A stretch of 64,000 nucleotides of DNA from Gemmatimonadaceae bacterium (GTDB taxonomy: Bacteria; Gemmatimonadota; Gemmatimonadetes; Gemmatimonadales; Gemmatimonadaceae): the NCBI GenBank assembly GCA_025358925.1, contig JANYHT010000044.1, positions 1 through 64,000 on the forward strand. Reading direction: 5' to 3'. The translations under genes were made by a program, and so were the position numbers. The notes beneath the pieces were generated by a model. That model saw nothing but the letters and a program-made list of their open reading frames with translations, ran no database searches and was not told the origin of the DNA. Below, in pieces: positions 28,050-41,406 of this stretch (positions are counted from its first letter, which is position 1; every line of letters begins with the position of its first letter).

Positions 28050-28625
28050 ATGACGGACGACGCCTTTCATCTTACAGCGCTCGATGTCCGGCGCTACGAC
28101 TTTGGCAACGCACTGCGTGGCTATGATCGCGCGCGTGTTGACCAGTTCCGTGATCAGGTCGCCGAGGAGCTGGAGCGACTCTCGAGGGCCAATCAGGAGC
28201 TCGACGCAAAAGCGCGGAGCTTCCACGAACAGCTGCGTGCCTTCCGTGATCGCGACAAAGCGATCAACGAGGCGCTGGTCAGTGCGCAACAGCTGCGGGG
28301 GGAAATTCGTCAACAGGCGGAACGCGAAGCGCTCTTGATCGTGCGTGAGGCACAAGCGGAAGCCGATAAGTCGCTGCAGCAGGTGCGTGAGGATGTGCGT
28401 CGTGCGGAGGAAGAATTGCAGCAGTTGTGGCGCGCGCGTCGCGCGTATCTCTCACAGTTGCGCAATCATCTCGAGCGGCAGCTCAACGAGTTGCAGGCTG
28501 CCGAGGACGAACCGGTGCCAACGTTTGGGTTAGCCCGTGAAACCCTACGTGAGACGCTGCGCGATACCCCGCGCGCCGCACCAGCGCCAACGCCTTCGTG
28601 GCTGGACGTGGTCGACGAGCTATGA
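28050..28625 (+). CDS. divIVA: DivIVA-domain protein
   Basis: 191-residue coiled-coil protein. The N-terminal LTALDVRRYDF and LRGYDRARVDQF blocks (about 7-31) match the DivIVA membrane-curvature-binding domain, followed by a long charged coiled coil (about 32-155) and a Pro-rich tail. In other bacteria DivIVA marks poles or division sites and recruits partners. ATG 28050 has a GGGAG Shine-Dalgarno. It overlaps the phosphorylase start (ATGA). Location upstream of a polarity-type GTPase cluster is notable, but a link is only inference. Confidence 0.9.
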   Translation: MTDDAFHLTALDVRRYDFGNALRGYDRARVDQFRDQVAEELERLSRANQELDAKARSFHEQLRAFRDRDKAINEALVSAQQLRGEIRQQAEREALLIVREAQAEADKSLQQVREDVRRAEEELQQLWRARRAYLSQLRNHLERQLNELQAAEDEPVPTFGLARETLRETLRDTPRAAPAPTPSWLDVVDEL

Positions 28626-29521
28626 AAGCACCAGAATCATTTCCGCAGCTGCAGTACACGCAGGAGCACAAAGCGGTTGGACTCGCGAACCCGGCACTTG
28701 GTCTGCATGCGCGAGAACGCATTGAAGCGTGCGCGCAGGCCGTCCGTTCGCGCTTCAGCAGGTCGGTCGATGCCGCCATCATTCTCGGCACGGGACTCGG
28801 CGCGTTAGCGGACGAGATGCACGTCGATACCGTGATTGACTACGGCGAGCTTCCCAATTTTCCGCTCTCCACCGTTGAATCGCACAAGGGCCGACTTTTG
28901 TGCGGCACATTGGCCGGGCGGACGGTGGTGGCAATGCAGGGGCGCTTTCATCGCTACGAGGGTTATTCTCTGCAACAGGTCACGTTTCCTGTGCGCGTGT
29001 TGCGAGCGCTGGGTGCGGAAACGTTGATCGTGAGCAACGCCTGCGGTGGTATGCATCCATTGTGGGCTCCCGGTGACCTCATGCTTATCGCTGACCATCT
29101 GAATTTGCTCGGCGACAATCCGCTGATTGGTCCGAACGATGACGCGTTAGGTCCGCGTTTTCCGGATATGTCAGAACCGTATGATGCCGGCTTGCGCACC
29201 ATCGCGCGCGCTGTTGCGGTCGCCAATGGGATTACGTTGCGCGAGGGCGTATACGCGGCTGTGCAAGGGCCCAACCTCGAAACGCGGGCGGAATATCGCT
29301 TTTTGCGTGCGGTCGGTGCTGATGTCGTCGGGATGTCTACGGTGCCTGAAGTGATCGTGGCGCGACACGGCGGTATGCGTGTACTCGGGTTATCGATTCT
29401 CACTGATCAGTGTTTGCCGGATGCACTTGAACCATCCAGTATTGCACAAATCATTGCCGTTGCGCGTGCCGCTGAACCAAAGCTTGCGGCCGTCGTGAAA
29501 GGCGTGCTCGCGCAATTGTAG
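28622..29521 (+). CDS. Purine-nucleoside phosphorylase, class I trimeric type
   Basis: Phosphorolysis of purine nucleosides to free base plus ribose-1-phosphate. 299 residues. Seen: ILGTGLGALAD, the SHKGRL phosphate-site motif, GRFHRYEGY, SNACGG, GPNLETRAEYR, and GMSTVPEVIVARH. The base-recognition segment reads SILTDQC: Asp stands where guanine/hypoxanthine-specific trimeric enzymes have Asn (SxITN), which may broaden base preference to 6-aminopurines. The ATG overlaps the divIVA stop by four bases. Salvage role fits the presence of hpt in the same window. Confidence 0.93.
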   Translation: MKAPESFPQLQYTQEHKAVGLANPALGLHARERIEACAQAVRSRFSRSVDAAIILGTGLGALADEMHVDTVIDYGELPNFPLSTVESHKGRLLCGTLAGRTVVAMQGRFHRYEGYSLQQVTFPVRVLRALGAETLIVSNACGGMHPLWAPGDLMLIADHLNLLGDNPLIGPNDDALGPRFPDMSEPYDAGLRTIARAVAVANGITLREGVYAAVQGPNLETRAEYRFLRAVGADVVGMSTVPEVIVARHGGMRVLGLSILTDQCLPDALEPSSIAQIIAVARAAEPKLAAVVKGVLAQL

Positions 29522-29556
29522 TTCATTTATCATCACGGTTGACACACACGATCCTC

Positions 29557-32500
29557 ATGACGGCACCGTTGTACCCGCTGCTCCCAGATCTTGGCGCTGA
29601 CGCTTTCGAACGCGAGCTCTTGTCGCGTTGGGATGATGAGCACCTTTTCGAGCGTGTGCAGGAACTACATAAAGATGAGAAGCCGTTTGTCTTCTATGAG
29701 GGGCCGCCCACGGCCAATGGTCGCCCCGGTATTCATCACGTGTTTGCGCGCACGATCAAAGATCTGTTTTGCCGTCATCGCGCTATGCAAGGGCATTTTG
29801 TGCCGCGCAAAGCCGGTTGGGATACGCACGGACTTCCTGTTGAGATTGAAGTCGAGAAAGAATTGCAGCGCGAAGCGGCGGCGCGTGACGGAGCGGATGC
29901 CGCGCAGATAGCGAAGCTTGGTGGTAAGCAACTGATCGAGCAGGTGGGGATCGTGGAATTTAATCGTCGGTGTCGCGAGAGCGTGTGGAAGTATCGCGGC
30001 GAATGGGAAAAGTTGTCGCAGCGGACGGCGTACTGGTTGGACTATGACAATCCGTATATCACGTACTCCAACAATTATGTCGAAAGCGTGTGGTGGGCAC
30101 TGCGCACACTGCACGGCAAAGGGTTGTTGTTTCGCGGGCATAAAATTCTGCCGTACTGCGCGCGTTGTGGTACCGCGTTGTCGAGTCACGAAGTTGCGCA
30201 GGGGTACGACGACGTCGAAGCGCCGAGTGTCTATGTTGCGCTCGATCTCCTCGATGCGCACGGGCAGCCCACATCCAGGGTCCGTCGCCGCTTGTTGGTG
30301 TGGACCACCACGCCGTGGACCTTGGTGTCGAACACCGCACTTGCCGTACATCCGGAATTGCACTACGTCGAATTGCGGAAGCAGCAGGTGCACGAATGGA
30401 CCGTCATCATGGCGGAGCCACGTGTGGCGGCGGTCCTTGGGGCGGACTGGGCGGATCGCTGGGACGTGATCGGCGCGCATCGCGGCGCTGATCTCGTTGG
30501 ACTTAAATATCAGCGACCGTTGGATTGGGTCCCGTATCCGGAAGAGGGGCGTCACGAGATCATTGTTGGTGAAGACTTCGTATCTGCGGACGATGGCAGT
30601 GGCATCGTGCACATGGCGCCTGCCTTTGGCGCGGACGATTACGCGGCAGGCCAGCGTCACGGTCTCGCGTTTATGCAGCCCGTCAACGCGCGCGGCGAAT
30701 TCACGGCCGACGTGACACAAGTCGCCGGTGTGTTTGTGAAGGACGCAGATGCGCACATTATCGACGTGCTGCGCGAACGCGATGTGTTATGGAAGGCGAG
30801 CACGTTCGTGCACTCGTATCCGCACTGCTGGCGTTGCGGTACACCGCTGTTGTACTACGCCCGCGGTTCATGGTTTATCCGCACTACTGCCGTCAAAGAC
30901 GACATGATCGCGCGCAACGCGCGCGTGAACTGGAATCCGCGCGAAGTGGGGTCCGGACGATTCGGTGAATGGCTCGTGAACAACGTGGACTGGGCGGTAT
31001 CGCGCGATCGCTACTGGGGCACACCGCTTCCGGTGTGGATCAACGATACCGATCCAACCGAAGTTGATGTGCTCGGGAGCTTCGCGGATTTGAGCGAACG
31101 CCTTGGTCGCGCGTTGCCCAGTGATTTCGATCCACACAAGCCGAATATCGATCAGTACACGTGGCCGTCGCCAACCGGCATCGGCACTATGCGACGCGTG
31201 CCCGAAGTCATCGATACGTGGTTTGACTCGGGTTCGATGCCGTTTGCACAATGGCACTATCCGTTTGAAAACGCGGACGTGGTGGCGCAGCAGTTCCCGG
31301 CCGATTACATCGCCGAAGGCGTTGACCAGACGCGCGGATGGTTCTACTCGTTGCTCGCCATTGCCACGGGTTTAGGCGATGCGCTGCCCAATAATGCGGA
31401 TGGATCGGCGGCGCCGTATCGCAACGTCGTGGTGAACGATCTCGTGCTTGACGCAAACGGGCAGAAGATGTCCAAGAGCAAAGGCAACGTCGTAAATCCG
31501 TGGGACGTGCTGGAGCGTCACGGTGCGGACGCGGTGCGATTGTTTCTCGTGGCGTCCAGTCAAGTATGGGTGCCACGTCGGTTCGACGAAAACGCCATTC
31601 GCGAAACGGCCGGCCGGTTTTTACTCACGTTTCGCAACGTGTACAACGGCATCTTCGCGCAGTACGCCAACTTTGGGTGGTCGCCAAGTGCGAGCGATCC
31701 GTTCGTGGCCGATCGTCCGGCGCTGGATCGATGGATTCTGTCTCGGTTGGCGCGCGTCGAATCTGAAGTCGATGCACACATGACCAATTTTGACGCCACC
31801 GTCGCGGCGCGGCGCGTGATGCAGTTCATGGATGATGATGTCTCGAAGTGGTACGTGCGGCTTTCGCGCGCCCGTTTTTATGACGTGGAACACGCGGACA
31901 ATCGGGCGGCGTTCGCGACATTGCATGAAGTGCTCGCGGTGACGTGTCGACTGCTGGCGCCATTTGCGCCGTTCATTTCGGACGCGGTGCACCGTGCGCT
32001 GGTCGGAACCTCTGTGCACCTGGCGTCGTACACGCGTGGGGGCATGCTGGCGGTCGATGCGGAGCTTGAGCAGGCGATGGACGACATCCGCGCGCTGGCG
32101 GGGTTAGGGCGTGCGGCACGTGACGTGGCGGCGGTGAATGTGCGCCAGCCACTACCGTTGGTGCAGTGCGTGGTGCCCGGGCATCGCCAAGGGGTGGTGG
32201 CGTTAGGCGATTTGCTCGCGTCCGAGTTAAACGTCAAACGTGTTGAATTCGTTACCTCAACCGATGCGCTCGTCTCACTCGAGGCGAAGGCCAATTTTCG
32301 CGCGCTCGGCAAGAAGTTTGGCAAGGAAACACCACTCGTTGCGGCCGCTTTTTCAGCGCTCACGGACGAGTCGTTACATGCGTTGGCGGCGGGATTGACG
32401 ATTACAATCGAAGTTGGCGGCGTCGCGCGCTTGATTGAACCGGGCGACCTGACCATCATCCGGCGCGCGTCGGGTGACGCCGTGGTTCAGGAAGACGGGG

Positions 32501-32838
32501 GCTATGGCGTTGCGTTGGATCCTACCGTGACGCCTGAACTTCGGGCCGAAGGACTAGCGCGTGAGGTGATTAGTCGCATTCAACGACTTCGCAAAGAGGC
32601 GCAGTTGGATGTGAGTGATCGGATTGCTGTCGCGGTTGCAGGCGACAGTGAGTTGCAAAGCGCGGTGGCTACACATCGGAGTCGCATCGCTGACGAAGTA
32701 CTCGCCGTGCGTTTTGTGCTTGGCGATGAACCGGGCTCGCCGTTCCATGCCAATGGACACGGCTCTATATGGACTGCGACGCAAGTGTCAGACGTCGATG
32801 GACGTGCTCTCTCAATCGCGCTCAGCAAGGAAGGTTAG
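29557..32838 (+). CDS. ileS: Isoleucyl-tRNA synthetase, type 2
   Basis: Charges tRNA-Ile; 1093 residues. HIGH-signature variant HHVF in GRPGIHHVFART (about 60-64) and KMSKS at 637-641. The CP1 editing domain spans roughly 180-400 (CARCG, WTTTPWTL, WRCGTPLLYY motifs). Overall length, the VPRRFDE segment after KMSKS and C-terminal architecture match the eukaryote-like type 2 IleRS, known from some bacteria to resist mupirocin. The ATG at 29557 is taken; a TTG six codons upstream is possible; neither has a good SD. dksA starts two bases after the stop. Confidence 0.96.
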   Translation: MTAPLYPLLPDLGADAFERELLSRWDDEHLFERVQELHKDEKPFVFYEGPPTANGRPGIHHVFARTIKDLFCRHRAMQGHFVPRKAGWDTHGLPVEIEVEKELQREAAARDGADAAQIAKLGGKQLIEQVGIVEFNRRCRESVWKYRGEWEKLSQRTAYWLDYDNPYITYSNNYVESVWWALRTLHGKGLLFRGHKILPYCARCGTALSSHEVAQGYDDVEAPSVYVALDLLDAHGQPTSRVRRRLLVWTTTPWTLVSNTALAVHPELHYVELRKQQVHEWTVIMAEPRVAAVLGADWADRWDVIGAHRGADLVGLKYQRPLDWVPYPEEGRHEIIVGEDFVSADDGSGIVHMAPAFGADDYAAGQRHGLAFMQPVNARGEFTADVTQVAGVFVKDADAHIIDVLRERDVLWKASTFVHSYPHCWRCGTPLLYYARGSWFIRTTAVKDDMIARNARVNWNPREVGSGRFGEWLVNNVDWAVSRDRYWGTPLPVWINDTDPTEVDVLGSFADLSERLGRALPSDFDPHKPNIDQYTWPSPTGIGTMRRVPEVIDTWFDSGSMPFAQWHYPFENADVVAQQFPADYIAEGVDQTRGWFYSLLAIATGLGDALPNNADGSAAPYRNVVVNDLVLDANGQKMSKSKGNVVNPWDVLERHGADAVRLFLVASSQVWVPRRFDENAIRETAGRFLLTFRNVYNGIFAQYANFGWSPSASDPFVADRPALDRWILSRLARVESEVDAHMTNFDATVAARRVMQFMDDDVSKWYVRLSRARFYDVEHADNRAAFATLHEVLAVTCRLLAPFAPFISDAVHRALVGTSVHLASYTRGGMLAVDAELEQAMDDIRALAGLGRAARDVAAVNVRQPLPLVQCVVPGHRQGVVALGDLLASELNVKRVEFVTSTDALVSLEAKANFRALGKKFGKETPLVAAAFSALTDESLHALAAGLTITIEVGGVARLIEPGDLTIIRRASGDAVVQEDGGYGVALDPTVTPELRAEGLAREVISRIQRLRKEAQLDVSDRIAVAVAGDSELQSAVATHRSRIADEVLAVRFVLGDEPGSPFHANGHGSIWTATQVSDVDGRALSIALSKEG

Positions 32839-32840
32839 CG

Positions 32841-33260
32841 ATGGCCGGATCGAACGCAGCGAAAAAACCGAAAGCGATGTCCAAGAAGTTGCTTACATAC
32901 TTTGAGAAGCGATTGCTCGAAGAGCGTCGGCGTGTGCTTAAAGAACTCGGCCACCACGGCGACACGTTTGGTCCGAACGGCGACGGCGATAACGGGGGGG
33001 CCGACGCGTATTCGTTTCACATGGCGGACCAAGGAACAGACGCAATGGAACGCGAGAAAGCATTCCTGTTTGTCTCGCAAGAAGGCCGTTTCTTATGGCA
33101 CATTGATCAAGCGCTGCGTCGCCTGTATAAGTCACCGGAAACGTTTGGCAAGTGTCATCAGTGTGGTGAAGAGATCGCGTTTGATCGACTCGATGCATTG
33201 CCGCACGCACGTTTCTGCTTCGCGTGCAAGCAACGCGAAGAAGAGGCGAAGAAGAACTGA
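32841..33260 (+). CDS. DksA/TraR-family zinc-finger transcription regulator
   Basis: 139 residues. A coiled-coil N-terminal region leads to a C4 zinc finger CHQCGEEI...FCFAC near the C-terminus, the DksA/TraR hallmark; the ADQGTDAMEREK segment fits the acidic tip of the coiled coil. Known family members bind the RNA polymerase secondary channel, often with ppGpp. The ATG at 32841 has an AAGGAAGG Shine-Dalgarno overlapping the ileS stop. Placed between ileS and lspA as in several other phyla. Confidence 0.9.
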   Translation: MAGSNAAKKPKAMSKKLLTYFEKRLLEERRRVLKELGHHGDTFGPNGDGDNGGADAYSFHMADQGTDAMEREKAFLFVSQEGRFLWHIDQALRRLYKSPETFGKCHQCGEEIAFDRLDALPHARFCFACKQREEEAKKN

Positions 33261-33262
33261 TC

Positions 33263-33772
33263 GTGAAGGCTCTTGTCTCGTGGCCCGTGCTGATCGTGAT
33301 TGTGCTGCTTGATCGGCTCACGAAGGTGTTGGCTGTTTCGTTATTGCCGCCCTCGGGCATGCCGCATAACGTCATCGGCGAAGGCGTGCGGTTTGCGCTG
33401 GTTTACAATCCGGGTGCGGCCTTCGGATTGTACCTCGGCGGGTATTCGCGTTGGATTTTTATGGCGCTCACCCTCGGTGCGCTTGTCATTTTGTGGCGGT
33501 TATTTAAACAGACGTCGCGCGATGATATCTGGCGCGTGTTTGCGATTTCGTTGGTGGCTGCTGGCGCGATTGGCAACCTCATTGATCGCGTGCAGACTGA
33601 ACTCGGCGTCGTGGATTTTATCGATGTCGGCGTTGGCGTGCATCGTTGGCCAACGTTTAATGTGGCAGACATGGCCGTGAGCACCGGCGCCTTTTTACTA
33701 GCGTGGGTGCTGTGGGGTGACGAGCGCCGACAGCCACTGTCGACGGTCCCAACGGAGAGTCACGATGAGTAG
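33263..33772 (+). CDS. lspA: Lipoprotein signal peptidase, first copy
   Basis: Aspartic protease cleaving prolipoproteins at the lipobox Cys in the inner membrane. 169 residues from a GTG two bases after dksA. Four hydrophobic segments. Conserved motifs: YNPGAAFG, GNLIDR and FNVADM, giving the two catalytic Asp. It overlaps the second lspA by eight bases. Substrates in view include the DUF4403 lipoprotein. Confidence 0.94.
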   Translation: MKALVSWPVLIVIVLLDRLTKVLAVSLLPPSGMPHNVIGEGVRFALVYNPGAAFGLYLGGYSRWIFMALTLGALVILWRLFKQTSRDDIWRVFAISLVAAGAIGNLIDRVQTELGVVDFIDVGVGVHRWPTFNVADMAVSTGAFLLAWVLWGDERRQPLSTVPTESHDE

Positions 33773-34301
33773 TGTGATGTCGTCGTCCCAATATGCGTCA
33801 GAACCGAAAGCGCGCACGCCGTCAGCCACCGTTCCGTTTTGGTTGATCGTCATTGCCGTTACCGTGCTTGATTTTGTCACCAAAGCCTTCGCCGTGGAGC
33901 GTCTGGCGCCGCGGCATATCCCTCATCGTGTACTCGGCGACTTCGTACGGTTCACGTTGGCGTACAACCCCGGCGCGGCTTTCGGCATGCACCTTGGGTC
34001 CGCGTCACGATGGATTTTTTCCGTTCTGAGTGTGGTGATTGTCGTTGTGCTCTTGCGATCTACCGCTGAGCTCACGCGTCTGTCGAAACTCGCAGCCGTT
34101 GGTGTACCAATCGTGATCGGCGGAGCCGTGGGCAATCTGTTGGATCGCATCCGTTTGCGTGAAGGCGTGGTGGATTTCATTGATGTCGGGATAGGCGACG
34201 TTCGCTTCTGGACGTTCAACGTGGCCGACAGTGCGGTGACGGTTGGTGCAGTGTGTCTCATTTTGGCGCTCTGGAGCCAAGAACGTGAGCAACGAACGTG
34301 A
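33765..34301 (+). CDS. lspA: Lipoprotein signal peptidase, second copy
   Basis: Tandem paralogue of the preceding gene, 178 residues, with an extended N-terminus of about 20 Ser/Ala-rich residues before the first helix. All catalytic motifs are kept: YNPGAAFG, GNLLDR and FNVADS. ATG 33765 has an ACGGAGAG Shine-Dalgarno. Two intact copies side by side suggest divided substrates or conditions; neither shows decay. The stop overlaps the rluD start (GTGA). Confidence 0.93.
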   Translation: MSSVMSSSQYASEPKARTPSATVPFWLIVIAVTVLDFVTKAFAVERLAPRHIPHRVLGDFVRFTLAYNPGAAFGMHLGSASRWIFSVLSVVIVVVLLRSTAELTRLSKLAAVGVPIVIGGAVGNLLDRIRLREGVVDFIDVGIGDVRFWTFNVADSAVTVGAVCLILALWSQEREQRT

Positions 34302-35323
34302 CTGATGCCGTCGCAACGACTGTTGAATTTGACGTCGCCGAAGCTGTGGGAGAACGACTCGATTTAATGGTCGCGCGACACTGCGAAACGTCGCGTACCC
34401 AGGCCGCGACACTGATCGCCAACACGCACGTCACCGTCAACGGCAAGCACCAGAAAGCCTCGTATCGCGGTGAGTCAGGTGATCACGTGCAGGTGATCAT
34501 TCCGCCGCCGCCGGGACGGGACATTGAGCCGGAACAGATTCCGCTCAGCATCGTGTACGAAGATGAGTCGCTCGTCGTGATCGATAAACCTGCTGGCATG
34601 GTGGTGCATCCGGCGCCCGGCAATTGGTCCGGCACGTTGGTGAACGCGCTTATGGGTCGCGGTGAACCGCTGGCTGATGGTGGTGGCAATGATCGACCGG
34701 GGTTGGTGCATCGTCTCGACAAAGAAACTTCCGGGCTGCTCATTGTTGCGAAGACCGACTCAGCGCACCGTACCCTGAGTGCGGCACTCAGCGCGCGTCG
34801 TATTGTCCGACGGTATGCATTACTCAGCTGGGGTCACCTGAAAGAAGAAATATTGAAAGTGGACAAGCCCATTGATCGCGATCCAAAGGATCGGACGCGT
34901 ATGGCCATTGTGCAAACGGGTAAGTCGGCGCGTACCGACTTTATGCGCCTTGCGCGGTTCGATGCCGTCGACCTGTTGCGCGCGCACTTGCACACCGGCC
35001 GCACCCATCAAATCCGCGTGCACTTGAATTCTGTGGGGCATCCGGTAGTAGGTGACGATACTTATGGAGGGGGCGGAGGACGGCGGCTCGCGGCGTTGCC
35101 GCCGAAGCGGTTCTTCCTGCATGCAGCTTGGTTGCGCTTTCGTCATCCGGTGACGGGCGAACAGCTAGACCTGCGAGCCCCCTTGCCCGCCGACCTGCGA
35201 ATTTCGATCGCAGCACTCGGTGGCATGCCGGAACTCGCCACCCAGGAAGATCCGCTCCATGTCTTCGGTTTCTATAACTACGACGAAACTCCCAAACCCG
35301 ACGTCGTCGACACAGACGACTAG
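34298..35323 (+). CDS. rluD: RluD-family 23S rRNA pseudouridine synthase
   Basis: Isomerises uridines in rRNA (RluD targets helix 69 in known species). 341 residues: an N-terminal S4 RNA-binding domain (GERLDLMVARHCETSRTQA, about 18-60), then the catalytic domain with HRLDKETSGLL, whose Asp is the nucleophile, and the HTGRTHQIRVHL motif. GTG start overlaps lspA by four bases. The last 65 bases overlap the start of cheW in another frame, so the signalling operon begins inside this gene. Confidence 0.93.
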   Translation: MTDAVATTVEFDVAEAVGERLDLMVARHCETSRTQAATLIANTHVTVNGKHQKASYRGESGDHVQVIIPPPPGRDIEPEQIPLSIVYEDESLVVIDKPAGMVVHPAPGNWSGTLVNALMGRGEPLADGGGNDRPGLVHRLDKETSGLLIVAKTDSAHRTLSAALSARRIVRRYALLSWGHLKEEILKVDKPIDRDPKDRTRMAIVQTGKSARTDFMRLARFDAVDLLRAHLHTGRTHQIRVHLNSVGHPVVGDDTYGGGGGRRLAALPPKRFFLHAAWLRFRHPVTGEQLDLRAPLPADLRISIAALGGMPELATQEDPLHVFGFYNYDETPKPDVVDTDD

Positions 35324-35753
35324 TGCGTCGCAGTTCGACGAGGATGACGAGCAACAGCCGCGTATCCTCGTCGTCAGCGTCGGGACTGTGCAGTATGGAA
35401 TTCCAGTGGCTCAAGTGCGTGAAGTCGTCCGCCCGGAGCGCATCACGCGCGTGCCTGGTGCGCCTGCCACGGTTCGTGGGATCGTTAATGTGCGGGGCGC
35501 CATCGTCACGGTGCTGGACCTCGCGGCGCTCTTGTCAAGAGAGCGTGCCGTCACGGCAGGGTCGGTCGTCCTCCTTGAACACGGCACCCGATTTATCGGA
35601 CTCGCCGTAGACACGGTGCGGGATGTTCAAGTTGTGGACCTCGCACGCCACACCGCGTCGGAATTGTCGACGCATGGCGACGTGGTCGTGCCACTGGATG
35701 CCGCCGCCCTGTGCGCGCAGCACCTGCTCTCTTCCGAGGAGATGGGACCGTGA
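35259..35753 (+). CDS. cheW: CheW-type coupling protein, first copy
   Basis: Adaptor linking chemoreceptors to CheA. 164 residues: about 30 disordered Ser/Thr/Asp-rich residues then a CheW beta-barrel domain (ILVVSVGTVQYGIPV, RVPGAPATVRGIVNVRG and IVTVLDLAALL are typical). The ATG at 35259, nine bases after GGAAG, is the only in-frame start before the domain, giving a 65-base overlap with rluD. Starts the chemosensory operon; its stop overlaps cheY by GTGA. Confidence 0.9.
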   Translation: MSSVSITTTKLPNPTSSTQTTSASQFDEDDEQQPRILVVSVGTVQYGIPVAQVREVVRPERITRVPGAPATVRGIVNVRGAIVTVLDLAALLSRERAVTAGSVVLLEHGTRFIGLAVDTVRDVQVVDLARHTASELSTHGDVVVPLDAAALCAQHLLSSEEMGP

Positions 35754-36115
35754 GCCGAACAGTTTTGATATGCGACGATGCGTTGTTCATGCGCACGATG
35801 GTTGGAGACATTCTGCAGCAAGCCGGCTTTGAAGTGGTCGGTGAAGCGGAAACCGGCGTGCAAGCCGTAGAGAAGTACCGCTTGCTGCGACCAGATCTCG
35901 TCACGATGGACATCGTGATGCCGGACATGGGCGGTATTGATGCGGTGCGGGAAATCACCAAATCCGATCCGTCCGCGCGCATCCTGATGTGTAGTGCAAT
36001 GGGTCAACAGGCGCTGGTGGTCGAAGCCATTCAGGCAGGCGCGAAAGATTTCGTCGTCAAGCCGTTTCAGCCGAGTCGCGTGTTGGAAGCAGTAAATCGC
36101 GTGCTGGCGGCGTAG
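35750..36115 (+). CDS. cheY: CheY-type single-domain response regulator
   Basis: 121-residue receiver domain. Acidic pair D9-D10, phospho-acceptor D54 in TMDIVMPD, S82 in CSAMG and K104 in VKPFQP complete the phosphorylation site. There is no output domain, so it should act as diffusible CheY for CheA, either on a motor or on a partner in this operon. Starts at GTG 35750; cheA starts 26 bases downstream. Confidence 0.94.
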   Translation: MSRTVLICDDALFMRTMVGDILQQAGFEVVGEAETGVQAVEKYRLLRPDLVTMDIVMPDMGGIDAVREITKSDPSARILMCSAMGQQALVVEAIQAGAKDFVVKPFQPSRVLEAVNRVLAA

Positions 36116-36141
36116 CTCGCGCGACCGCGCGCCTCGCGCTC

Positions 36142-38091
36142 ATGGATCAGACGAAATACGCGGAACTCTTCCGCACCGAATCGCGTGAACATCTGGCGGA
36201 GCTAGATGACGCGCTGCTCGCGCTCGAAGCGCGTGATGCATCGCGCAACACTGCCGCGATCGATGCCGCGCATATAAGTACGCTCTTTCGCAATACGCAT
36301 TCGATAAAAGGCATGGCCGGCGCGATGGGCTATCGCGTGGTCGAACGTATTGCGCACGCACTAGAATCGTTGCTCGATGACTTGCGTAGCGGGCAGGCAA
36401 TTGATGTGACGGTACTGACGCTGCTGTTCGATGGCAGTGATGCGATGCGCGGAGCGATTGACGACGCTTCAAACGGCCGCGCCACGCACGAAAGCGACAC
36501 GTTACGTACCGTACTACAGCGCCTCACCGAAGCGCAAAGTCGAGACGTTGATCTTGACGGCGGTGCGCCACTCTGCGCCGCGATCGGTGTCGGCGCCATG
36601 CTCCTCACCGATGATCCCGCGGTCCCAGCGGCCGAGGAGAATTCGACACTCGAAATTGACGTGCGCTTGACGCACGATTGTCCATTGAAAGGCGTGCGCG
36701 CGCTGCTGATCCTTGGGCGAATCAATGCCGTGGCCACGGTGCACGCATTGTCTCCGCTGCAACACACTTGGCAAGACGAATCGTTCGACGGTCGCTTTTC
36801 CGTCATCCTCACCACGACAGCAACAGCCGACGAAGTAGAAGCCACGGTTCGCGCCGCTGGCGACGTGTTGCGCGTTACAAGTCGTGTACCGGAGCCCGCG
36901 ACGTCGCGTGGCGCGGGAGAAGCGCTGCGCACCGTGCGCATTGATTTGCGTCGATTGGACACCCTGTTGGAGTTGGTGGGAGAGTTGGTCATCACGCGCG
37001 ATCGCTTGCTGCGCGTCGCTGATGCAGCCGTCGAGCAGGGAGCGAATCGCGCGATTGCTCGGGCCGCACACGATACCGCGCGCTTGATCAGCACATTGCA
37101 AGACGAAGTATTGCAAGCGCGAATGGTGCCCATTGGGCAAGTGTTCGATCGCTTTCCGCGCTTAGTCCGCGACATTGCCCGCGATCTGCACAAAGACGTC
37201 GAATTCGTCACCGAGGGTCGTGAAATTGAACTTGATCGATCACTGCTGGATGCCATTGGCGAACCCATATTGCATTTGTTGCGCAACGCACTCGATCATG
37301 GACTCGAGGATGCTGCCACCCGACGCAGCGCCAACAAACCACCAAGGGGTCAGCTCATTCTGCGAGCGGCGCGTGATCGTGGTGCGGTGGTGATCCAAGT
37401 GGAGGACGATGGTCGAGGCATTGATCGTTCGACAATTCTCACGCGGGCACGATCGCAAGGTATTTTGAGCGCGGACGTCACGAGGCTAGATGACGATCAG
37501 CTGCTGCACGTGCTGGCACATCCGGGATTTTCCACAGCACACGCGGTAACGTCAATCTCCGGACGTGGCGTCGGCGTCGACGTCGTTTCAACGCGCGTCC
37601 GAGCGTTGGGAGGTTCGCTCACGTTGGAGACGTTGGAGGGACTGGGGACTGCCTTCACCCTCCGTCTCCCCGTAACGTTGGCCATCACGCGCGCCTTGCT
37701 GGTGCAAGTCGGCGACGGGATCTATGCCATTCCCGCCGCACAGATCGTTGAGGCCTTGCAATTCGAACCCGATACAAAGGTTGCACCCCCGGAACACGGA
37801 ATCGTGCAGCGACCCGCACGTGAGACGGTACGCGTGCGTGGGGAAACGTTGCCAGTCTTGCGGCTCCGCGACCGTTTTGATTGCGGACCAAATGAAAATG
37901 ATAGTTTCGTCACGGTGGTCGAAATTTCTGGTCGGCGCACCGCCGTGGTCGTCGACGCGCTCATCGGTCAGCAGGACGTTGTTGTGAAGCGCTTTGACGC
38001 GCCACGTGAGGGCGCACCGTGGTTTAGCGGTGCGACCGTACTCGGTGACGGGACACCGTCTCTCATCGTCGATCTCAGTAGTCTCTGCTGA
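36142..38091 (+). CDS. cheA: Chemotaxis histidine kinase CheA
   Basis: 649 residues. P1 Hpt domain with phospho-His H53 in NTHSIKGMAG; a P2-like beta/alpha segment around 170-250; P3 dimerisation helices near RIDLRRLDTLLELVGELV; P4 HATPase with N-box LLRNALDHGLED, G1 VEDDGRGID and G2 GRGVGVDVV; and P5 CheW-like domain beginning LALLVQ-type at ALLVQVGDGIYAIPAAQIVEAL. A full CheA without an attached receiver. It would feed cheY and cheB of the same operon. Confidence 0.95.
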   Translation: MDQTKYAELFRTESREHLAELDDALLALEARDASRNTAAIDAAHISTLFRNTHSIKGMAGAMGYRVVERIAHALESLLDDLRSGQAIDVTVLTLLFDGSDAMRGAIDDASNGRATHESDTLRTVLQRLTEAQSRDVDLDGGAPLCAAIGVGAMLLTDDPAVPAAEENSTLEIDVRLTHDCPLKGVRALLILGRINAVATVHALSPLQHTWQDESFDGRFSVILTTTATADEVEATVRAAGDVLRVTSRVPEPATSRGAGEALRTVRIDLRRLDTLLELVGELVITRDRLLRVADAAVEQGANRAIARAAHDTARLISTLQDEVLQARMVPIGQVFDRFPRLVRDIARDLHKDVEFVTEGREIELDRSLLDAIGEPILHLLRNALDHGLEDAATRRSANKPPRGQLILRAARDRGAVVIQVEDDGRGIDRSTILTRARSQGILSADVTRLDDDQLLHVLAHPGFSTAHAVTSISGRGVGVDVVSTRVRALGGSLTLETLEGLGTAFTLRLPVTLAITRALLVQVGDGIYAIPAAQIVEALQFEPDTKVAPPEHGIVQRPARETVRVRGETLPVLRLRDRFDCGPNENDSFVTVVEISGRRTAVVVDALIGQQDVVVKRFDAPREGAPWFSGATVLGDGTPSLIVDLSSLC

Positions 38092-38110
38092 CGAACGCAC
38101 AGGAATAGCC

Positions 38111-38731
38111 ATGCAAGCAATCAAGACACTCAAGAGCATTCAACTCGACGCATTGCGTGAAACGGCAAATATTGGTGCCGGCCACGCGGCGACGGCGCTG
38201 TCGCAGATGACGGGAAGCACCATCATGATCAAGGTACCGGCGATCACAGTGGCCGGGATGGATGAACTACCGGAACAATTTACGGCCGATGAAGAACCCG
38301 TTGCCGCGGTGCTCATGCACATGCTCGGTGATCTGACGGGTCGCACCATGCTCGTCTTTCCGCGCCCCACGGTCATGCGACTCGCTGAGCTCATGTTGCA
38401 TCGCCCAGTGGGTTCATCGATGGCACTCGGCGAGCTCGAAGCGTCGGCCATCAAGGAAGCGGGAAACATTTTAAGCGGTGCGTACATGAATGCGCTCAGT
38501 GATTTCCTTGGTATGCTCCTGCTGCCGTCGCCACCGAGCTTGGTGATCGACATGTCAGCGGCGGTAATGACGAGTGCGTTTGGTGAGTTTGCCACCGACC
38601 CGGATGCGATTCTGTGTGTGGAAAGTGAATTTATTCTGACGGAAACGGGACATACGTTGCGCGGCTTTTTTCTGTTGTTGCCAGATCCTGCGTCGTTGCA
38701 GGTGATGTTGCGCGCGCTGCGACTGGCCTAA
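38111..38731 (+). CDS. cheC: CheC-type CheY phosphatase
   Basis: 206 residues with two phosphatase signatures: ETANIGAGHAATAL near the N-terminus and EAGNILSGAYMNAL around 118. Each keeps the Glu and Asn needed to dephosphorylate CheY-P, and CheC is known to pair with CheD, present downstream. ATG 38111 follows AGGAA. Lies 19 bases after cheA. Confidence 0.92.
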   Translation: MQAIKTLKSIQLDALRETANIGAGHAATALSQMTGSTIMIKVPAITVAGMDELPEQFTADEEPVAAVLMHMLGDLTGRTMLVFPRPTVMRLAELMLHRPVGSSMALGELEASAIKEAGNILSGAYMNALSDFLGMLLLPSPPSLVIDMSAAVMTSAFGEFATDPDAILCVESEFILTETGHTLRGFFLLLPDPASLQVMLRALRLA

Positions 38732-38754
38732 CGGAGGTGGTGGTGGAGGCGCCA

Positions 38755-41406
38755 ATGACGGGAAGCGCGTCCACCAATCGCGATAAGGCGTTGTTGCGTG
38801 GCTTGGCGGATCGTATCGATCCGCAGGATCCCGGCGCGTTCAATAATCTTGGCGTGCTCTATCACAGCAAAGGCCTGCATGCCGAGGCAGTCGCGGTATT
38901 CTTGCGTGCGCTGACCCTCGATCCTCGCATGCGTACGGCGGCGCGGAATCTTGAGATTGCCGCGTCGCACGAAGGGGCATGTAGCACATTGTTGCTGCAT
39001 CTCGACGCGCGCTTGACCGCGAGTGCCGACGACACGAGCGCGCGCCGCGAGCGCGCTCGCTTGCTGCGACTCATCGGTCGGCATCGCGAAGCCACCGACG
39101 AGCTGGACAAGTTGCTCGCTGCTGATCCGGATGATGCGGCCTCGGTGTTCGAGCGCGGATTGATCGAGCAGCGCGCTGGCGATCTGCGTCGCGCGCAACG
39201 ATGGTTCGAACGGGCCGCCAATGCGGCGCCGCAAGATCCAATGCCGCGACTCCATCTCGCAGAGGTCCTGTATCAACGCGGTCAGAACGAGCAGGCACTC
39301 GAAGTTTTGGATGCCTTGCTGGCGCAGTGTCCGACCATCGCCGATGCACACCTGCTTCGGGGCTTCGTACTCGGCGACATGGGACGTCACGACGCGGCGC
39401 TTGAGGCATCGCGACACGCAGCGATGTTGAATCCGTCACTGCATTCGTTGCAGTCCGACCTTTCGCTTGATTCCGCCGCGCCCGCAATGCTCGCTGATGT
39501 ATCGAGTGGTCAGCGAGGCGATAGCACGGCAGTGCAGGACGTCGCGCTTGCACGCTACGGTTTGGGTCTCGCGTTCCGTCAGCGCGGATACTTTGACGAG
39601 GCGCGTCGCGAATTCGAACGGTCGCTCGCCAGCGGGGAAGAGGCAGAATTGGCACGGCACGCGATCGCGGAGCTCGATCTGCTTGCCGGCAGTTTTGCTG
39701 CCGCGCTTGCGCAGTATGACGTGCTGCTTGCTGTGCACCCGGACGAACCGCGTTATTGGAATGAGCGCGGCGTTGCCTTACATCAAGGCGGGAACGTCGA
39801 AGGCGCGGCGGAGAGCTATCGTCGTGCGCTCCAAGGTGATCCGCGTAGCGCGTTGCTGTACAACAATCTTGGTGTCGCACTGTCCGATCTTGGTGAGCAC
39901 TCGGCGGCACGCGAGGCCATCACGCGCGCGAGCGAACTCGATCCAACGTTCACGCGCGCGCGCCTCAATCTCGCGCGATGGAACCTTGAGCAGCGAGATC
40001 CGTTGGCAGCGCTGGCCCTCTTGCGCGAACTTGTGGCATTTCATCCGACCGATGCGGATGCGTGGCACGCAATGGGTATTGTGCTGCAGGAATTGCATCG
40101 ACCAAGCGACGCCCGCGATGCGTTTACGCGCGCCATCGAACACCGGCCCGAACATGCAGAGGCGCGATATGCCCTGGCGCAAGTACTCGGTGTGTTGGGT
40201 GATGCAGATGGTGCACTGCGCGAGACGCAACACGCATTAGGGCTCGCGCCAATGCGCGCTGAGTCCCGGCTGACCGTATGTATCGAGCTGCAGTACGAAT
40301 GCCCAGAAGCGGCTGGAACGCTTGACCTGCTTGCGTTGCGTGCGCACGACCCACTCGCCGGTGTGAGGGTTGATGCATCACTCGTCGCGGGCTTGTTACC
40401 AGAACAGGGAACTCGCGGCCCTGCACATAGTGACCACGACGAACGAACGCTTGATCCGATCGCGCAGGCCTTGCGCGGTTGTGCCGACGGCGACGCCTTT
40501 GCGATGCGCGGTGTGCATGGCGAGGCCATTGAGCGTTTCGAAACCGCGCGTCGCTCGCTCGAACCGATAGATCACTTTGCATCGACAGCGCATCGCGCGA
40601 TGTGGCGCCGTGCCGCCATCGGTGAAGCGCGATCCCGCTGTCTTATGGGCGAAGGACATATCGTCCATGACATGCTACGCGCGCTCGGCGCTGTCGATCC
40701 GCACGACCAGGAAGTGTTGGCGCTCTTCGCGGACAGCGCGGCAGAAGCATCACACCGTGATGGTTCCGAGCCCGAGGCCACCCGCAAAATCATGCAACGA
40801 TTGTTGCGCATGGATACGACGAGCGCGGCTCTGATGCATTTCGTTGGTGATACCGCCGTACGCATCCGTCATGAAGCGTTTGCTATGGCGTTTTTTCGAC
40901 GCGCGCTAGCAATCGATCCCACTCGTCCGTCGCCCCGCGTGGCGATCGCGCGTCTCCTGCGCGCGCGTGGGGAACTCCTGTCGGCTCGTCTCGAGTTGGT
41001 GGCAGCGCTGAGCACGGCACCGGGCTGGCGCGAGGCGGTGCTGGAACTTGCGCGGGTGCATCGCGATGCCGCGCGTGGAACAGAAGCAGTCGCGCTCTTA
41101 GCACGTCATCTCGCGCAGACACCGACAGACCTCGATGCCATCCTCCTCTTGTCACAAGTGCTCATCGCACTTGAACGCGACGATGATGCACGCGTGACGG
41201 TTGATCGCGCGGTCCGACATGCGCCGGATGACCAGGGGGCACTCTGGTTCGATGGCCTTTTGCTGTTTCGGCAGTCGCGACAACGCGATGCGACCGAGCG
41301 GTGGACGCGTCTCCTCGCGCAGGAAGGAGATGAACGCGGGTTTGCGGCGGACGCACGAGCGGCCCTCGATTCGCTTGCCTCATCCTCCTTGCGGCTTGCG
41401 TCGTGA
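38755..41406 (+). CDS. Large TPR-repeat protein
   Basis: 883 residues made almost wholly of tetratricopeptide repeats, with motifs such as AFNNLGVLYHSKGLHAEAV, YNNLGVALSDLGEHSAAR and WHAMGIVLQELHRPSDA, and no signal peptide or membrane helix, so a cytoplasmic scaffold is likely. ATG 38755 has GGAGG five bases upstream; a GTG at 38737 is an alternative. Sits between cheC and the first PATAN gene with a GTGA overlap at the end. The partners held by the scaffold are unknown; neighbours suggest CheA, CheC or the GTPase module. Confidence 0.82.
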   Translation: MTGSASTNRDKALLRGLADRIDPQDPGAFNNLGVLYHSKGLHAEAVAVFLRALTLDPRMRTAARNLEIAASHEGACSTLLLHLDARLTASADDTSARRERARLLRLIGRHREATDELDKLLAADPDDAASVFERGLIEQRAGDLRRAQRWFERAANAAPQDPMPRLHLAEVLYQRGQNEQALEVLDALLAQCPTIADAHLLRGFVLGDMGRHDAALEASRHAAMLNPSLHSLQSDLSLDSAAPAMLADVSSGQRGDSTAVQDVALARYGLGLAFRQRGYFDEARREFERSLASGEEAELARHAIAELDLLAGSFAAALAQYDVLLAVHPDEPRYWNERGVALHQGGNVEGAAESYRRALQGDPRSALLYNNLGVALSDLGEHSAAREAITRASELDPTFTRARLNLARWNLEQRDPLAALALLRELVAFHPTDADAWHAMGIVLQELHRPSDARDAFTRAIEHRPEHAEARYALAQVLGVLGDADGALRETQHALGLAPMRAESRLTVCIELQYECPEAAGTLDLLALRAHDPLAGVRVDASLVAGLLPEQGTRGPAHSDHDERTLDPIAQALRGCADGDAFAMRGVHGEAIERFETARRSLEPIDHFASTAHRAMWRRAAIGEARSRCLMGEGHIVHDMLRALGAVDPHDQEVLALFADSAAEASHRDGSEPEATRKIMQRLLRMDTTSAALMHFVGDTAVRIRHEAFAMAFFRRALAIDPTRPSPRVAIARLLRARGELLSARLELVAALSTAPGWREAVLELARVHRDAARGTEAVALLARHLAQTPTDLDAILLLSQVLIALERDDDARVTVDRAVRHAPDDQGALWFDGLLLFRQSRQRDATERWTRLLAQEGDERGFAADARAALDSLASSSLRLAS

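Follow-up and report, generated by a model that had tools for sequence, protein, structure and literature searches.

Genomes with more than one gene for the lipoprotein signal peptidase LspA have been described. For Myxococcus xanthus, a 2021 review (PMC8689077, citing Xiao and Wall 2014) counts four lspA paralogues: lspA1 and lspA2 form a tandem in the lgt operon with a proposed housekeeping role, and lspA3 and lspA4 belong to the myxovirescin cluster. The review also gives two lspA copies for Streptomyces hagronensis, a globomycin producer. Because the proposed housekeeping genes of M. xanthus already stand side by side in that account, a tandem of lspA genes is not new as such. The enzyme itself is an antibacterial target, and the S. 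aureus LspA structure paper (PMC6952399) argues that mutations in its conserved site would be hard to reconcile with a working enzyme; the paper describes 14 highly conserved residues, the catalytic Asp pair among them, and those of the FNxAD segment cluster around the bound inhibitor. Among the literature matches listed, which covered few subscription papers, none dealt with the LspA copies of Gemmatimonas or of Gemmatimonadota.

The window analysed here, a stretch of 64,000 nucleotides from a Gemmatimonadaceae bacterium, was noted in a first-pass annotation for two intact lspA genes in tandem, overlapping by eight bases, the second with a Ser-rich N-terminal extension. Each of these observations held on inspection: both reading frames are complete, the overlap covers 33765-33772, and the extension is present. 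The genes around the pair are as follows.

29539..32838, + strand: ileS-type class I tRNA synthetase gene (PF00133), a conserved upstream neighbour; "ileS" is our reading, as Pfam gives the I/L/M/V class only
32877..33260, + strand: dksA/traR-type zinc-finger gene (start inferred), a conserved upstream neighbour
33263..33772, + strand: lspA1, GTG start, 169 aa, canonical Trp-Pro type lipoprotein signal peptidase
33754-33757: GGAG, 8-11 nt 5' of the lspA2 ATG
33765..33772, + strand: overlap of the lspA1 and lspA2 reading frames, 8 bases
33765..34301, + strand: lspA2, ATG start, 178 aa, Phe-Trp type lipoprotein signal peptidase with N-terminal extension
34298..35323, + strand: rluA/rluD-family pseudouridine synthase gene, a conserved downstream neighbour with a 4-base overlap with lspA2

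The gene order at the pair is ileS-dksA-lspA1-lspA2-rluD, and a gap of 2 nt separates the stop codon of the dksA/traR-like gene from the lspA1 GTG. Since the reading frames touch or overlap, co-transcription is likely, and the two lspA genes are probably co-expressed from one operon. The main-locus order ileS-dksA-lspA-(lspA)-rluD is found repeatedly in the family and also outside it. Details of the junction vary among 16 loci of the Gemmatimonas clade, several of them named MAG records placed by the first of two trees: a candidate lspA2 start with a 4-base overlap is found in 9 of the 16, and the 8-base overlap occurs in the window genome only. With starts inferred, LspA2 extensions of very roughly 20-30 residues, rich in Ala, Thr and Ser, recur across these loci, and the run of serines is likewise particular to the window genome.

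Directly 3' of the rluD-family gene lie cheW, response-regulator, cheA, cheC and TPR genes (window 35220-41406), and cheY, cheA and cheC homologues recur downstream of that gene in many relatives. A tandem lspA pair with PNP-, ileS- and dksA-like genes upstream of it is also present in a Latescibacterota record (L088, 4683-5962); its copies are 43% identical, with Pro in one and Trp in the other.

Both proteins of the window are assigned to the LspA family by Pfam PF01252 (LspA1 117.4 bits, LspA2 119.9; cut-off 25) and by the NCBIfam equivalog TIGR00077 lspA (84.3 and 102.4 bits; cut-off 73.95). The first-pass annotation had every catalytic motif kept in both copies, and indeed each has all 14 residues highly conserved in S. 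aureus LspA: in LspA1, by an alignment of 13 sequences, D17, K21, N49, G51, G101, N105, D108, R109, V116, D118, F132, N133, A135 and D136, and in LspA2 D36, K40, N68, G70, G120, N124, D127, R128, V135, D137, F151, N152, A154 and D155. The Asp of GNxxDR is absent in 3 of 176 rows (L005, L018_T1 and L151_T1). The codons of the catalytic dyad, as that dyad is given in PMC6952399, and of the residue pair that sets the copies apart are these.

33614..33616, + strand: LspA1 D118, first catalytic Asp
33647..33652, + strand: LspA1 W129-P130, just 5' of T131-F132-N133, canonical type
33668-33670, + strand: LspA1 D136, second catalytic Asp
34173..34175, + strand: LspA2 D137, first catalytic Asp
34206..34211, + strand: LspA2 F148-W149, the diagnostic aromatic pair that replaces x-Pro
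34227-34229, + strand: LspA2 D155, second catalytic Asp

An AlphaFold2 model of LspA2, made from 22 sequences, has a mean pLDDT of 85.5 and consists of four helices plus strands. Foldseek aligned it to P. aeruginosa LspA (5dir) with a target-normalised TM of 0.81-0.84, and the top PDB hits of the model are 5dir and 6ryo/6ryp, all of them LspA. LspA2 is thus modelled with the LspA fold of four helices and a beta-cradle, and the same fold is predicted for LspA1 from its sequence.

The phylogeny of the two copies, proposed in the first-pass annotation as a check, shows that the duplication is old, and a duplication that is recent and strain-specific is excluded. LspA1 and LspA2 are 46% identical in the window genome and 42-47% identical within one genome across the 16 Gemmatimonas-clade loci; compared with the other 15 loci, the window copies have mean identities of 67.5% (LspA1) and 73.0% (LspA2). 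Median dN/dS is 0.154 for LspA1 (maximum 0.266; 115 of 120 possible pairs, dS<2) and 0.117 for LspA2 (maximum 0.284; 117 of 120 pairs, dS<2); dS is high in many pairs, and close pairs such as L033/L120 agree. Values this low indicate that both genes are maintained under purifying selection. A second copy that is functionless, having arisen by a recent duplication in one strain or arrived laterally, is scarcely credible beside dN/dS well below 1, copies 46% identical, deep clades and a tandem pair that is visible in 26 of the 30 genomes of genus Gemmatimonas, and nothing in the window genome spoke for it. The four without a visible tandem (G286, G289, G294 and G295) are all fragmented drafts.

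Two trees bear on the age of the pair. The first has 177 rows (one short row dropped) and a group "other_phyla" in which one Gemmatimonadetes record, L089, is counted; it sets first tandem copies apart from second ones with 6 and 5 label changes, where shuffling gave means of 38.7 and 38.9. For the second tree, 227 rows that scored >160 bits and had the motif were reduced by similarity to 113, and the two motif columns were removed. This tree places 52 of 57 aromatic rows in one clade (support 85/90), together with one long-branch Latescibacterota row; the aromatic rows outside are L007_T1, L047, L153, L073 and L170. A single clade of the 52 aromatic rows, a group named after the tree had been seen, is not rejected (p-AU 0.444), and neither is a duplication before the split of the window's family, f1, from its sister family, f2 (p-AU 0.184). 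Trees and p-AU values together place the duplication at family level or deeper. The aromatic copies of f2 may have been inherited or transferred.

The two columns just before FNxAD fully separate the copies in 42 of the 43 tandem pairs (L015 was left out of this column comparison), with Trp-Pro in one and Phe-Trp or Phe-Tyr in the other. With identical copies counted once, all 43 tandem loci consist of one Pro-type and one Phe-Trp/Tyr-type copy: 41 have Trp-Pro first and Phe-Trp second, and two (L007 and L008) are swapped, with Phe-Tyr before Trp-Pro. The solved LspAs have Phe-Pro before FNxAD, so the canonical Pro is present there. Within the genus, 44 of 157 alignment columns separate the two copies nearly or fully. 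As the diverged residues adjoin the active site, functional divergence of LspA2 is plausible. The same counts weigh on the reading in which both copies carry out one task on one set of substrates and the second simply raises LspA capacity: type-specific residues by FNxAD in 43 of 43 tandem pairs, and 44 separating columns, exceed what neutral dosage needs, and the copy identity of 0.42-0.47 in the genus set speaks against recent gene conversion. We regard such plain redundancy as rather unlikely, with two points in its favour: some family genomes have either type alone, and there is no sign of a second pathway, with one Lgt match in the window genome (on contig C29, the lspA pair being on C26) and one in 22 of the 30 genus genomes. 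Two side observations concern Lgt: one Gemmatimonas genome has an extra divergent LGT match that adjoins an extra LspA (G291:C3:117980-119322), and another genome (G048) has three LGT matches.

In many other genera a second lspA lies away from the main locus, and 34 of 35 such unlinked copies have an aromatic residue at the motif site. The exception, L005 (G039), is a weak match (133 bits) with Trp-Pro and a foreign look that groups with other phyla; its GNxxDR motif has Asn instead of Asp, and none of the main-locus neighbours lie beside it. The unlinked copies share no single conserved neighbour across lineages; in sub-clades, what we take from the look of their sequences to be an HrpB-like helicase gene and an S41-peptidase-like gene recur beside them.

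Of 28 single copies at the main locus, 23 are of the Pro type, the exceptions being L042 (a contig-edge record), L047, L149, L073 and L153. In genera g30 (Phe-Trp) and g7 (Trp-Trp), the sole LspA copy lies at the main locus and belongs to the Pro-type clade, and Phe-Trp is also found in main-locus copies of the other-phylum records L090, L093, L096 and L101. The aromatic motif is therefore not confined to LspA2. Its presence in these main-locus copies indicates that it arose more than once and is compatible with ordinary function as the only enzyme. In L047 (g30), Phe-Trp within the Pro-type clade points to either convergence or gene conversion. In the three g30 genomes (L047, L149 and L266) this main-locus Phe-Trp LspA is the only copy found.

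Copy number was surveyed in 249 genomes of the phylum with completeness of at least 90%, and 246 have at least one LspA match. Among the 93 genomes of f1, 13 have one copy, 45 have two, 32 have three and 3 have four; all 13 members of genus Gemmatimonas in the sample have three. The first-pass annotation's remark that a single lspA is the rule among bacteria agrees with several other families of this phylum (for example most genomes of f5 and f7) and fails for f1, f4 and f6. A DNA pattern for the aromatic type matched 96 of the 249 genomes, and the table of matches lists none for the reversed control pattern; all 30 loci fetched from pattern matches are LspA. The pattern misses some copies, such as the YNVAD variant in L140, so its counts are lower bounds: at least 78 of 93 genomes in f1 (among them six of genera g30 and g7, matched at the main-locus copy), 13 of 49 in f2 and 5 of 107 in the rest of the phylum. 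Each of the 13 genus members has one aromatic-type site, and all 13 pattern-positive f2 genomes have at least two LspA copies. The LspA pair is thus an old arrangement of two distinguishable types, common to much of the family.

A single LspA without the aromatic pattern was found in 8 of the 93 family genomes and a single LspA with it in 5, where some apparent copy losses may reflect incomplete assemblies. Genomes that have one copy, of either type, suggest that neither type is strictly indispensable in the presence of the other and argue against a strict division of labour.

Besides the tandem pair, the window genome (a Gemmatimonas of 4.0 Mb in 72 contigs) contains a divergent PF01252 match on contig C71, which makes three matches in all.

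L114:6113-6661 (G000:C71), outside the window: third LspA-like copy; the genus rows of this type are L183-L209

Such a third protein occurs in 27 of the 30 Gemmatimonas genomes, once with an internal stop. In S. aureus numbering, its 27 distinct rows keep both catalytic Asps and have Ser for D109, Met, Ile or Leu for R110, and Ala, Met or Val for F132; Table 1 of PMC6952399 lists the S. aureus R110A variant as having no activity. The idea that the third copy has lost a catalytic Asp was dropped, as the dyad given in that paper is the other Asp pair, which is kept. The copy of the window genome scores 54.4 bits with TIGR00077, below the cut-off of 73.95, and its model shows an LspA fold (mean pLDDT 79.4; target-normalised TM to 5dir 0.78-0.80). 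An RNase D-like gene adjoins the third copy in 26 of 27 loci, itself below the cut-off of its family (TIGR01388, 186.7 bits against 298.95). The third copy is probably not a standard LspA.

A further possibility is that LspA2 compensates for a missing apolipoprotein N-acyltransferase (Lnt). TIGR00546 was over its cut-off in 0 of 30 Gemmatimonas genomes (weak matches in 25), and the Lnt family PF20154 was found in 0 of 13 genus members against 126 of 249 genomes of the phylum. The lack of detectable Lnt in the genus, and a negative association between the aromatic pattern and Lnt over the 249 genomes (Fisher p 6.5e-10), speak for the idea. Inside single families the association loses significance (f1 p 0.18, f2 p 0.11, f7 p 0.063), and Lnt is present in 19 of the 78 pattern-positive family genomes, which makes compensation highly improbable. 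A link of LspA2 to Lnt loss was accordingly set aside, the association over 249 genomes being mainly a between-family effect.

LspA2 might instead be an isozyme tolerant of globomycin or myxovirescin, as the extra LspAs of producers may be. The extra lspA copies in producers described in the review (PMC8689077) would suit this, as would the position of the changed residues next to the FNxAD segment that, in the S. aureus structures (PMC6952399), clusters around the bound inhibitor. The inhibitor contacts named in the latter paper are conserved residues, however, and both copies keep them. The surroundings of the pair also argue against tolerance: nine neighbouring proteins, from 28,598 to 41,403, were scanned without finding an antibiotic biosynthetic cluster around it, the families seen being a phosphorylase (upstream), the tRNA synthetase, the dksA/traR-type protein, the pseudouridine synthase and che and TPR proteins. 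No open reading frame of the 64,000-nt window exceeds 1,099 aa, which leaves no room for a large synthase gene next to the pair. Tolerance as the role of LspA2 is accordingly quite improbable.

The reading that we favour, with a probability of about 0.6, is that LspA2 is an ancient, active paralogue with an altered pocket edge, and that the pair is partly redundant, probably a set of subfunctionalised isozymes. LspA1 would be the phylum's housekeeping prolipoprotein signal peptidase, kept at the ileS-dksA-lspA-rluD locus. LspA2, a paralogue that appears to be at least as old as the family Gemmatimonadaceae, would have kept the full aspartyl-protease site while gaining Phe-Trp for x-Pro just before FNxAD, the motif of the second catalytic Asp, and further differences that became fixed. 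Most likely the two are active enzymes of the inner membrane, with the diacylglyceryl-modified prolipoproteins made by Lgt as their substrates. A changed pocket edge could alter the choice of signal peptide or inhibitor, and the two isozymes probably differ in signal-peptide preference or in response to natural LspA inhibitors; the divided substrate sets or differing inhibitor sensitivity that the first-pass annotation raised as possibilities are, like the activity, an inference. The narrower proposal, in which two isozymes are stably retained and the Pro-to-Trp switch itself gives LspA2 different prolipoproteins or a different inhibitor sensitivity, is put forward tentatively, at somewhat short of an even chance. 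A lipobox check over 381,313 bases of the window genome found nothing bimodal among 21 regex candidates, a small sample of which some members are probably false; the -1 position was A in 9, G in 8 and S in 4.

Most genomes of the family have two full LspA types, distinguished by an aromatic/Pro switch at the edge of the active site, and nature thus provides a test of whether that edge sets the substrate or inhibitor choice of LspA. If the isozymes do differ in substrates or inhibitors, they would form a natural pair for studying how LspA chooses its substrates.

Compared by description with M. xanthus, as presented in the 2021 review (PMC8689077), the Gemmatimonas pair is alike in that its two lspA genes adjoin and are presumed to serve housekeeping; unlike lspA1-lspA2 of M. 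xanthus, which are in the lgt operon, it lies in ileS-dksA-lspA-lspA-rluD, with lgt on another contig. With S. hagronensis, as that review describes it, it shares the presence of more than one LspA per genome, and unlike that producer it has no large synthase gene in the window around it. Both proteins resemble the solved LspAs of peptidase family A8 (P. aeruginosa 5dir, S. aureus 6ryo/6ryp) in predicted fold, catalytic dyad and the 14 conserved residues. The solved enzymes and LspA1 have an aromatic residue and Pro before FNxAD, whereas LspA2 has Phe-Trp there and an N-terminal extension.
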